Position numbers and translations under genes: made by a program. The notes under the pieces were generated by a model. That model ran no database searches and was not told the origin of the DNA. It was given only the letters and a program-made list of their open reading frames with translations. From an uncultured Bacteroidota bacterium (GTDB lineage Bacteria; Bacteroidota; Bacteroidia; JABEUT01), in assembly GCA_903863935.1 (NCBI GenBank), contig CAIPDV010000126.1:1-41834 (forward strand): DNA of 41,834 nt, in the 5' to 3' direction. This document shows positions 21,746 to 41,834 of the stretch, in pieces (the first letter of the stretch is position 1; each line of letters begins with the position of its first letter).

Positions 21746-22375
21746 ATGAAGAAGATTATCCTTTTAGGAACCGTTTTATTTGTGCTGAATGGCTTTGTGA
21801 ATGCGCAAGATGCCGTTAAAGTCGTTACTGTCGGTAAACAAATATGGACTGTCGAGAATTTAAATACGTCTACCTTCCGTAATGGAGACAGCATTCCTCA
21901 GGCGTTATCAGATTCTGATTGGGCCAAGGCTGCACGCAACCATAAACCTGCCTGGTGCTATTATATGGGTAATCCTGTTAATGGTAAAATCTATGGCCGC
22001 TTATATAATTGGTATGCCGTTAATGATAAAAGAGGGCTAGCTCCAAAAGGCTGGCACGTTCCAACTGATATGGAATGGAATAAATTAGTTGAATTTTTAG
22101 GCGGGTACAAAACCGCAGATATTAAGTTAAAAAGCAAGGTTTCGTGGGATGGAGATGGTAATGGTGACAACAGCACGGGCTTTGCCGGAATCCCTTCAGG
22201 GCAACGTATTGTTCGATTAGGGTTCATGGGGCTGGGAAATATTGCATGTTTTTGGGCTGCCAATAAAAAGGATAACGATGAAGCCTACTATTTTCCTCTG
22301 ACCAAACACGGAGATACAGCAAACCCAAGTTATTCCAAAAGTGCAGGGTTTGCAGTTCGGTTGATTAAGAACTGA
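21746..22375 (+). CDS. FISUMP-domain secreted protein, 209 aa
   Basis: The mature protein is one copy of the Fibrobacter succinogenes major paralogous (FISUMP) domain. It shows GKQIWTVENLNTSTFRNGD, IYGRLYNWYAVND, GLAPKGWHVPTDMEWNKLVE and GFAGIPSGQR, ending with the usual SAGFAVRLIKN. From the chosen ATG the N-terminus is a signal peptide (MKKIILLGTVLFVLNGFVNA-Q), so the protein is exported and probably displayed or released. It has no T9SS sorting domain and no lipobox. Its function is unknown. Its 3' end overlaps the convergent glycosyltransferase gene by 11 bases. Confidence 0.88.
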   Translation: MKKIILLGTVLFVLNGFVNAQDAVKVVTVGKQIWTVENLNTSTFRNGDSIPQALSDSDWAKAARNHKPAWCYYMGNPVNGKIYGRLYNWYAVNDKRGLAPKGWHVPTDMEWNKLVEFLGGYKTADIKLKSKVSWDGDGNGDNSTGFAGIPSGQRIVRLGFMGLGNIACFWAANKKDNDEAYYFPLTKHGDTANPSYSKSAGFAVRLIKN

Positions 22376-23519
22376 TTTTCTTTAACCATTCATCAACCAC
22401 TTTCTTGTAGTTTTCTTTTTCAAAAGCAGGTTCAACAGGATTAAGTTCATTGGCTTTTTCCAATGCATCTTTCAATGAAAGCCCTTTTTGGGTAAAGGTT
22501 ATAGCCATTCCTCTTTTCTCGAATTGTTTAGCAAGATATTCCTGTTCAGTTTGGCCCGGAGTTGGAATAAAAATCGATTTTTTCCAACCAATTGTATGTA
22601 AATCCATAATTGTAGAATAGCCTCCACGGCTTAATATGACCTCACTGTTGTTAACCGCATCCTGAAAATCTGTATCACCCAAATGTGGAATAATTTGCAC
22701 ATTTCTCCCCTCTCTACTTGGTAGGGATTGGGCCAGGGGGTAAGTACTTCCAGGCAAACCTTGAATTATCAAAGCTTTGGTTTTTGGCAAGTCTTTTAAT
22801 TGATTTAAAATAATTTCCTCCAGTTTGCTACGCTGCGGTTCTGGCCCTGAAAGAATAACAAGCAAATCATATTTCTTGTTTTGGTTAAACCCCAAACCCC
22901 TAAAGGGGCTTTGAGCAGCACTATTCAAGGCCCCTTTAGGGGTTTGGGGCTGAACAACTAAGGTGTCAAACCGTGAAAGTGGTCCAACATACTTTCCATT
23001 CAAGCCTTTTGGAATAGGGTGGGAAAGAGTACCTGATAAATTAACATCTCCGGAATAATCTGGAATCCAGCATTCATCAAAGTTTTTAATGTAATTGTAA
23101 GCAGTCTTGCTCAAAAAAGTATTGGCTGCCGGAGCTTGAATATTTAACTGGTGGGTTATAATGATTGATGGGATTTTTTTGTTCCATAAACCGTAACGGT
23201 TGTCGGAAATAGCTGCATCAATATTTTTATCTTTAATAATAGTTTCCAGTAGTTCATGTTCTTTTTTGATAGCAGCAACCATTTGTGGCAACTGGAATAA
23301 AACCTTAACACCAACTGGAAGTGCGGTGGAATACTTAATCCTATAACCCGGAAAATCCACAAAGTCAACGTTGAGAAAATGTTCTTTTAAAAATAAAAGA
23401 TGTGGACCTTCTGCCCCAATTACAACCTCAATTTTCTTTTCCAGCAGATGGTGTATTATCGGTATGCATCTCGATGCATGGCCCAAACCCCAGTCTAAAG
23501 GAGAAATAAATATGCGCAA
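22365..23519 (-). CDS. GT28/MurG-like glycosyltransferase with in-frame palindromic insertion, 384 aa
   Basis: The protein resembles MurG-type and UDP-GlcNAc-transferase-like enzymes. The N-terminal domain starts MRIFISPLDWGLGHASRCIP with the GLGHASR glycine loop. The C-terminal domain has LVILSGPEPQRSKLEE and VILSRGGYSTIMDL followed by TPGQTEQEYLAKQFEKRG, the donor-binding region of the GT28 superfamily. Between the domains, at about residues 190-210, a stretch TPKGALNSAAQSPFRGLGF is encoded by a 60-base palindromic element. The gene starts six bases after the ABC permease and is likely in one operon with it. The acceptor is unknown; glycolipid or glycan synthesis is plausible. Confidence 0.85.
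   Translation of the reverse strand: MRIFISPLDWGLGHASRCIPIIHHLLEKKIEVVIGAEGPHLLFLKEHFLNVDFVDFPGYRIKYSTALPVGVKVLFQLPQMVAAIKKEHELLETIIKDKNIDAAISDNRYGLWNKKIPSIIITHQLNIQAPAANTFLSKTAYNYIKNFDECWIPDYSGDVNLSGTLSHPIPKGLNGKYVGPLSRFDTLVVQPQTPKGALNSAAQSPFRGLGFNQNKKYDLLVILSGPEPQRSKLEEIILNQLKDLPKTKALIIQGLPGSTYPLAQSLPSREGRNVQIIPHLGDTDFQDAVNNSEVILSRGGYSTIMDLHTIGWKKSIFIPTPGQTEQEYLAKQFEKRGMAITFTQKGLSLKDALEKANELNPVEPAFEKENYKKVVDEWLKKISS
22890..22949. repeat. 60-base palindromic element inserted in a coding region
   Basis: Bases 22890-22914 and 22925-22949 are inverted copies (24 of 25 positions match) around a 10-base loop. Each arm contains CCCCTAAAGGGGC and CCCCAAA. The element is 60 bases, a multiple of three, and keeps the glycosyltransferase frame open through the linker between its two domains. 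Its GC content is far above that of the gene around it. It resembles the palindromic repeats scattered in Bacteroidota genomes and, in concept, the Rickettsia protein-inserted palindromes. Confidence 0.88.
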
Positions 23520-39821: not shown

Positions 39822-41834
39822 TTAGCGTTTGATAAACACCCATCCTGATTTTTCAAGGCCATTGTATTTAATGACATAGTAGTAAGTACCGTCCGGCAGA
39901 TCTCCGCCCGACATGTTCTTACCTTCAAAACGGATGGTTTTATTATCGTAGTTGGTACCCATCCATACTTCGCTGCCATAGCGGTTCATCACCACTACAG
40001 AGTTATCCTGGTAGCAGTCCAGCATCGGGATATTCCACCAGTCGTTGATGTTATCACCATTGGGAGAGAACCCGTCATAGAAGTTCATATCCACCGGAGT
40101 AACGGTTACGGAACTGGTAGCAGTACATCCGGCTGTATCGGTTACCACCAACGTATAAATAGTTGTAACACCTGGGTCAGCGGTAGGTTGTGCTGCAGTA
40201 GCCGAGCTTAATCCACCGGCAGGAGTCCATGCATAGGTGTTTCCTGCTACGGCAGGAGTACCGATGACAGCACCTGTTCCGCAGGCTTTCTGATCAAGGC
40301 CGGCATCCGCCGAAGGCAATGGATTTACAAATACGGTCACCGAGTCTGTATTAAAGCAAGCTCCTGTTGCATTTACAACGGTAAGCGTATAGGTAGTAGT
40401 AACGGTAGGGCTCGCATTAGGCTGAGGAACGGTATCGGAACTGAGGCCGGTGTTCGGGGTCCATGAATAAGTGTCACCGGATTGACGGGTACCGCCAATG
40501 CTTGTAACATCACCTAAACAGATGGTTTTATTAGGTCCTACCAATGCGATCGGTAAAGCGGTTACGGCAACGGTAACGCTGCTGGTAGCAGTACAACCGC
40601 TTGCATCGGTAACTGTTATAGTATATGTAGTAGAAGCGACCGGATTTACAACCGTGCTGCTGCTTGTACCACCGGAACTCCAGGAATAGGTGTACGGAGC
40701 TGTACCGCCTGTCTGAGAAGCAAAGAGGGTATCGGAACTACCCGCACACGTGTTAAAGGTAGAAGCCGTGGAAGAAGCTACCAATGCAGGAGGAGCGGTA
40801 ATAGTAACAGAGGCTGTTGCAGTACAACCGCTGTTATCGGTAACGGTAACGGTATAGGTACCTGCCGAGAGGCCTGTAGCATTAGCATTGGTACCACCCG
40901 AAGGAGACCATGCATAGGTGTACGGAGCCGTACCGTTGCTGGCCGTAACGGTAGCATCACCTGTGCTGGCACAGGCTGTAGCATTGGCATTCACTACGGC
41001 AGTTGCACTCACCACTGCCGGAGCAGTGATGGTTACGCTTGCAGTTGCTGTACACCCATTATTATCAGTTACGGTAACAGTATAAGAACCTGCCGAGAGG
41101 CTGCTGGCTGTAGCACCTGAACCTCCGCTAGGGCTCCATGAATAAGTATATGGTGTAGTTCCGCCACCCGGAGTAACGGTAGCACTTCCATCGGCATTAC
41201 ATCCCGTTGCATTATTATCAACCACAGCAGTAGCGGTAACCGCAGCCGGAGCTGTAATAGTTACAGTTGTGGTTGCAGCGCAACCATTATTATCGGTTAC
41301 CGTTATAGTATAAGTTCCCGCAGAAAGATTGCTTGCCGAGGCATTGGTACCTCCCGAAGGAGACCATGCATAGGTGTATGGAGAGGTTCCACCACTTGGT
41401 GTAACAGTAGCACTACCTGTATTGGCACAGGCAGTAGCATTGGTATTAACCACCGCAGTAGCCCCCACCGCAGCCGGAGCTGTAATGGTTACACTTGTGG
41501 TTGCAGAACAACCATCATTATCGGTTACGGTTATGGTATAGGTACCTGCCGAGAGGCCTGTAGCATTGGCATTGGTACCACCCGAAGGACTCCATGCATA
41601 GGTATATGGAGTGTTACCACCCGTTGCAGTAACAGTAGCATTACCGGTATTGGCACAGGCAGTAGCATTGGTATTCACCACGGCAGTAGCCCCCACCGCA
41701 GCCGGAGCAGTGATGGTAATCGTAGTGGTTGCAGTACAGCCGCTGTTATCAGTTACGGTTATGGTATAGGTTCCAGCCGAGAGGCCTGTAGCATTGGCAT
41801 TGGTACCACCCGAAGGAGACCATGTGTATGTATA
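39822..41834 (-). CDS. SprB-repeat adhesin with T9SS type B (gliding-motility-associated) C-terminal domain, 5' end beyond window
   Basis: The frame is open to the window edge, so only the last 670 residues are seen. From the edge come repeats of 76 residues with TPYTYAWSPSGG, LSAGTYTITVTDNDGC and VTITAPA, the SprB type. A variant PYTYSWSSGGT domain and two Ig-like segments with CLGDVTSIGG and YAWTPAGGLSS follow. The last 85 residues are the type B sorting domain: YDGFSPNGDNINDWWNI, VVVMNRYGSEVW, GGDLPDGTYYYVIKY and SGWVFIKR. The protein should cross the outer membrane by T9SS and stay on the cell surface, probably with the adjacent PorP/SprF protein. Confidence 0.93.
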   Translation of the reverse strand, partial: YTYTWSPSGGTNANATGLSAGTYTITVTDNSGCTATTTITITAPAAVGATAVVNTNATACANTGNATVTATGGNTPYTYAWSPSGGTNANATGLSAGTYTITVTDNDGCSATTSVTITAPAAVGATAVVNTNATACANTGSATVTPSGGTSPYTYAWSPSGGTNASASNLSAGTYTITVTDNNGCAATTTVTITAPAAVTATAVVDNNATGCNADGSATVTPGGGTTPYTYSWSPSGGSGATASSLSAGSYTVTVTDNNGCTATASVTITAPAVVSATAVVNANATACASTGDATVTASNGTAPYTYAWSPSGGTNANATGLSAGTYTVTVTDNSGCTATASVTITAPPALVASSTASTFNTCAGSSDTLFASQTGGTAPYTYSWSSGGTSSSTVVNPVASTTYTITVTDASGCTATSSVTVAVTALPIALVGPNKTICLGDVTSIGGTRQSGDTYSWTPNTGLSSDTVPQPNASPTVTTTYTLTVVNATGACFNTDSVTVFVNPLPSADAGLDQKACGTGAVIGTPAVAGNTYAWTPAGGLSSATAAQPTADPGVTTIYTLVVTDTAGCTATSSVTVTPVDMNFYDGFSPNGDNINDWWNIPMLDCYQDNSVVVMNRYGSEVWMGTNYDNKTIRFEGKNMSGGDLPDGTYYYVIKYNGLEKSGWVFIKR
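40787..41834 (-). repeat. 228-base tandem repeats in the adhesin gene
   Basis: A marker word CAGCCGGAG or a close variant recurs at 40787, 41015, 41243, 41471 and 41699, exactly 228 bases apart. There are four full units (40787-41698) and part of a fifth at the window edge. Each unit encodes one 76-residue SprB-type repeat with two cysteines. The units near 41471 and 41699 are nearly identical, which suggests recent duplication or conversion. Confidence 0.92.

Follow-up and report, generated by a model that had tools for sequence, protein, structure and literature searches.

In-frame copies of a genus-restricted palindromic repeat in genes of an uncultured Bacteroidota bacterium

We analyzed a stretch of 41,834 nucleotides (the window) from the 3.76 Mb draft genome of an uncultured Bacteroidota bacterium, which we refer to as G000. 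A 60-nt palindrome within a glycosyltransferase gene of the window (element A) is very probably one copy of an interspersed repeat that is confined to one genus and that has inserted in frame into genes in the G000 lineage. The repeats form a family with a single open frame; six full copies lie within genes of G000, and related genomes have empty sites and in-frame relics. The relevant features of the window are:

22365..23519, minus strand: host gene, encoding a 384-aa GT28/MurG-like (MJ1255-like) glycosyltransferase with two Rossmann-type domains and element A in the linker.
22890..22949, minus strand: palindromic element A, 60 nt, with in-frame peptide PQTPKGALNSAAQSPFRGLG (glycosyltransferase residues 191–210).
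22890..22909, plus strand: left arm CCCCAAACCCCTAAAGGGGC, the conserved 20-mer of the family, with the sub-palindrome CCCCTAAAGGGG inside it.
22930..22949, minus strand: right arm, an inverted copy of the 20-mer.
22700..22745 (approximate boundaries), minus strand: a further in-frame palindrome, decayed and from a different family (CCCTCTCT..AGAGAGGG), with the peptide reading ...PLAQSLPSREGRN.

The DNA of element A is CCCCAAACCCCTAAAGGGGCTTTGAGCAGCACTATTCAAGGCCCCTTTAGGGGTTTGGGG. This copy matches its own reverse complement at 52 of 60 positions, as expected from an earlier note, made from the letters of the window, that had described a near-perfect palindrome here. An unbiased search for inverted repeats independently ranked it first in the whole window, with 31-nt arms (22884–22914 and 22925–22955) that are 90% complementary and are separated by a 10-nt gap. 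The predicted DNA fold of the element has an energy of -28 kcal/mol (z = -8.2), and the RNA fold of the surrounding 80 nt reaches -49.8 kcal/mol, versus -24.75 +/- 3.36 for shuffled sequences (z = -7.5). A comparison of the element with Rfam gave only sub-threshold matches to microRNAs and snoRNAs, which are usual for any long hairpin. The palindrome was also said to be rich in GC, and it is: 57% (34/60 by hand count), versus 28–48% in the adjoining 60-nt blocks. The note was right that a linker peptide is encoded, but the peptide that it gave (TPKGALNSAAQSPFRGLGF) is off by two residues where it starts and by one where it ends.

Other copies of the repeat, which the note had proposed to search for across the genome, are present at about 38 sites in G000 by BLAST with the 60-mer. 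The 13-mer CCCCTAAAGGGGC likewise has 38 matches, and the reversed-pattern control has none. With strict scoring, G000 has 23 full copies, 16 of which have a length of exactly 60 nt, as well as 13 single arms. The family consensus is self-complementary at 58 of 60 positions. The exact 20-mer arm turned up in 8 of the 11 genus members and in no genome among 384 from the rest of the class. When named genomes were scanned with a 45-nt pattern, the matches were to two contigs of one MAG (AM_bin-3948, uncultured Bacteroidetes bacterium), apparently the same as contigs C128 and C101 of G005, which is the nearest sister species. Five other genus members have the same arms around variable and mostly longer loops, for total lengths of 54–149 nt; among the genus members that we scored, the form of exactly 60 nt is found in G000 and G005 only.

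Frame 0 of the consensus is open on each strand, giving PQTPKGALNSAIQSPFRGLG and PQTPKGALNSTIQSPFRGLG; stop codons interrupt the other four frames. Owing to the self-complementarity of the element, nearly the same peptide (PQTPKGALNS[A/T]IQSPFRGLG) is encoded in both orientations. The genic copies encode the 20 residues PQTPKGALNSAxQSPFRGLG. The 60-nt copies outside of genes are also mostly open (24/30 strand readings, by hand count), so an open frame is not by itself a sign of selection in genes, and we make no claim that selection keeps the genic copies open.

All six full genic copies in G000 are in frame 0 of the coding strand. Their hosts are the glycosyltransferase of the window, MtaB, NadE, an oligopeptide ABC transporter ATPase, CysS, and a PMT-type glycosyltransferase. 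G005 has one full genic copy, also in frame 0, in a SAM methyltransferase. The full genic copies are 60 or 66 nt long. Other copies in G000 are at or near the N-termini of GldB and of a PA0069-family radical SAM protein, and BshC contains a single arm. Single arms in G005 are in CtaA/COX15, a CN-hydrolase, an HlyD-type protein, a PAP2 protein, a secreted protein, and the ABC ATPase. MtaB, NadE, CysS, BshC, and GldB all score above the NCBIfam equivalog cut-offs, and the reading frame and the homology run on across the insert in every host.

In relatives, NadE and CysS have no element at these sites. The NadE insert is absent from all eight of the same-genus orthologues that we aligned, which read directly through the site; by hand count, the G005 orthologue is 24 codons shorter. 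The CysS insert is absent from all seven of the aligned orthologues, and the same count against G005 gives a difference of 19 codons. Solved NadE, CysS, and MiaB chains also have no equivalent of the insert. Searches of the genus with these segments gave no second match of comparable score to NadE or CysS in G000, so the proteins with inserts are presumably the working enzymes. In-frame copies in at least five unrelated genes besides the glycosyltransferase, together with the empty sites, bear out the proposal that a mobile palindromic repeat had entered a coding region, and it is from filled versus empty sites that we infer mobility. Neither of the two outcomes that the note had named as refuting its idea occurred.

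Several other repeats are found near these copies. Residues ~264–309 of NadE (L054, G000:C74) are a second insert, also in frame and larger, that lies between the CN-hydrolase domain and the NAD-synthase domain and is made of a CGTCATTGCGAGG-type repeat and a GGAGCCCGACTGGC repeat (peptide ..DCFVPRNDG..SLRGSAKQS..). Palindromes of the CGTCATTGCGAGG type are also nested within the element A loop at L072 (G000:C66:9062), L025 (C80:101754), and L244 (G005:C116); the composites with both arms are 127–173 nt long. Apart from its single arm, BshC (L009, G000:C42) has an in-frame stretch resembling tandem repeats (VDPTPLVKQGVN..) around IEHNVGVDPRVDPTPLVKQGVNPTPLVKQGVNPTPLVDPRVSPYKIV. At L063 (G000:C81:49992), an out-of-frame copy of the element's core ends an ORF with SprB-like repeats, and this gene was possibly broken by the insertion. 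Within the window, 40743–41834 holds five 228-nt tandem repeats in a long ORF (39822–41696, minus strand) that resembles an SprB-type adhesin and has a gliding/secretion-type C-terminal end.

In the window's glycosyltransferase, element A was said to lie between the two domains, and this predicted position is supported by the match to Glyco_tran_28_C, which begins at residue 232, and by an AlphaFold2 model, in which residues 184–214 have pLDDT below 50 and lie between the strands at 175–178 and 217–222. A second place with low confidence, residues 257–270, is at the decayed palindrome. The model is modest (built from six sequences; pLDDT 69.5, pTM 0.64), so it gives weak support to reading both inserts as loops. 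As the earlier note would predict, the orthologues from G002, G003, G006, G008, and G009 do not have the linker. The G005 orthologue has CCCCAAAACGCTAAAG, a mutated relic of the left arm, and a few bases further on, GATAATTGCCGGTCGGGCTCCGACC, which belongs to a different repeat family. That family (pattern GCCNGTCGGGCTCCGAC) is a short palindromic repeat with 23 copies in G000, 27 in G005, and none in nine other genus members; one of the G005 copies is in frame in the glycosyltransferase linker, and some copies adjoin arms of element A.

The decayed palindrome of the same gene (22700–22745, peptide SLPSREGR) is ~190 nt from element A. Its counterpart is intact in the G005 orthologue (CCCTCTCTGCCAAGCAGAGAGGG, G005:C50:7865-7887), and the family of this palindrome has 10 copies in G005. 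The small hairpin repeat CCCTCTCT(N)AGAGAGGG, whose stem is conserved and whose loop is variable, has 14, 10, and 5 copies in G003, G005, and G008, respectively.

The glycosyltransferase is not the only host with shortened or mutated relics in near species. In the linker of the ABC ATPase, G000 has PQTPKGALNSTIQSPFRGLG, G005 has PQTPKGALSSIPQSLREVLGL, and G002 has PQTPKEALNKGLGL, and the insert is missing in G006–G010. BshC has PQTPEGVL in G000 and PQTSGGAFK in G002, with nothing comparable in the others. These relics are in frame, so the insertions persist as peptide during erosion, by steps that keep the frame.

It is possible, although we think it doubtful, that element A is an ordinary extragenic palindrome of the REPIN/BIME type, which would act as a terminator hairpin or stabilize transcript ends, and that the genic copies are rare accidents. 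This explanation agrees with ours that the element is a repeat and differs in the weight that it gives to the genic copies. Like REPINs and the REPs of REP-RAYT systems (TnpA-REP, Y1 HUH), element A has a variable spacer between two inverted arms, is found in dozens of copies, and is predicted to form a very stable hairpin. One copy in G000 (C45:31637) directly follows the apparent 3' end of a tRNA. Also, all 53 full copies in the five variable-loop genus members are outside of long genes. However, G000 has 6 of its 23 full copies well within long genes, and the exactly 60-nt form was seen only in G000 and G005. If a copy is counted as genic when its ORF is 150 aa or longer and continues for 30 aa or more on both sides of it, 7 of 38 full copies are genic in G000 and G005 versus 0 of 53 in the five relatives (Fisher p = 0.0016, which is only a guide because the ORF cut-offs were our own choice and the copies share ancestry). 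All of the genomes are drafts and these copy numbers are approximate; completeness is 52–86% in the genus apart from G000, G005, and G006, and the five relatives fall in this range.

Two other features of REPINs are missing as well. Unlike a REPIN, the arm CCCCAAACCCCTAAAGGGGC lacks a GTAG/CGTC tag at the foot of the palindrome (by eye). Subclasses 2.4 and 2.6 of TnpA-REP are described from Bacteroidetes (PMC6006769). Unlike in REP-RAYT systems, we found no Y1 transposase gene that is flanked by the repeat: among the 28 Y1_Tnp (PF01797) loci of the genus, none has an arm within ~1.5 kb even when 4 mismatches are allowed, which in draft genomes is no proof of absence, and one locus (G008:C16) has only the core AGCCCCTTTAGGGGC, ~200 bp away. 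Membership among the REPINs therefore fails on the tag and the linked transposase, and the share of copies in coding sequence also sets element A apart.

The relics also bear on whether the peptide was recruited, with the host proteins using a Pro/Gly-rich linker for flexibility or interaction and selection maintaining it. The ABC ATPase and BshC do keep peptide relics in more than one species, but these are shortened and substituted, so the peptide itself is not conserved. Also, the inserts in NadE and CysS are missing in all relatives, the hosts are functionally unrelated, and the insert in the glycosyltransferase is modelled at very low confidence, like a disordered loop. We consider recruitment to be improbable. 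We give still less credence to an artefact of assembly or binning that misjoined repeats into genes. The assemblies are all drafts in many pieces, and copies do stand at or near the ends of a few contigs (C65:3, C21:1), but the frame and the homology are continuous across every insert, and degenerate relics are at the same position in independent genomes. Finally, inter-domain linkers are frequently Pro/Gly-rich, but convergence on a low-complexity linker is refuted by the genome-wide copies, which include nearly identical DNA, with unchanged codons, in six unrelated genes and many intergenic copies.

In the lineage of G000 and G005 the repeat has its compact 60-nt form, with one open frame per strand. 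If it is mobile, as seems likely, its copies would land genome-wide. They might be moved in trans by a HUH/Y1 process that acts on single-stranded hairpins: the layout of two inverted arms suggests that the hairpin is recognized on single-stranded DNA, as for REP/TnpA-REP. A copy that lands in a gene in the open phase would add 20 flexible residues and would be retained at exposed loops or linkers of the protein. Later, the copies would mutate, shrink in frame, and remain as ordinary protein sequence. The effect on the host enzymes is probably near-neutral. The phase of insertion may be random, with survival of the open phase, or may be targeted. We observed no movement within a species, and the empty sites of NadE, CysS, MtaB, the ABC ATPase, and BshC gave no convincing or unambiguous target-site duplication. 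The ends of the element are inverted, and the lack of a clear duplication at NadE, CysS, and MtaB may reflect their diverged flanks.

The Rickettsia palindromic elements (RPEs), which the earlier note had invoked, hold up as the closest working analogue, as an analogy rather than as established membership. RPEs are 105–150 bp long and occupy intergenic DNA as well as many conserved genes, the latter in frame; the RPE-bearing Gmk of R. conorii is translated and active, with altered substrate affinity (PMC2229807, PMC10969869). Like the RPEs of Rickettsia and Wolbachia, element A is a multicopy palindromic repeat that is found both between genes and in frame in unrelated conserved genes, and its inserts are missing from orthologues. 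In both cases the extra peptide appears to be tolerated, and a target duplication is not established (PMC2229807, PMC10969869). Unlike RPEs, which are from intracellular alphaproteobacteria, element A is found in one Bacteroidota genus, its genic form of 60 nt is below their length range, and its near-perfect dyad gives almost the same peptide from both orientations. ERIC/RU-1, YPAL/RU-2, and other bacterial MITEs are also small repeats whose open frames can fuse to genes (PMC2229807). However, the ERIC/YPAL-type MITEs are ~100–170 bp long, and several have TA ends and/or target duplications, whereas element A is a palindrome over nearly its full length and has no clear duplication. By analogy with RPEs, we file element A as a protein-coding palindrome from outside the Rickettsiales.

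Protein-coding palindromes have been described as a peculiarity of Rickettsia and, later, Wolbachia. In the literature we found palindromes within genes described only for other groups, which is weak evidence of novelty as subscription papers were thinly covered. Element A is shorter than RPEs, its frame is independent of orientation, and it is from a Bacteroidota genus with genomes of ordinary size. Automated annotation will label such peptides as species-specific linkers. Sister species show sites that are empty, occupied, or in decay, so that a comparison can retrace how an insertion becomes a tolerated peptide and then erodes. We put at not quite an even chance the broader idea that the palindromes are now frame-neutral and are spreading, along with other families that share their host genes, through coding sequences as well as spacers, so that their insertion would be a recurrent process of protein evolution outside the Rickettsiales.
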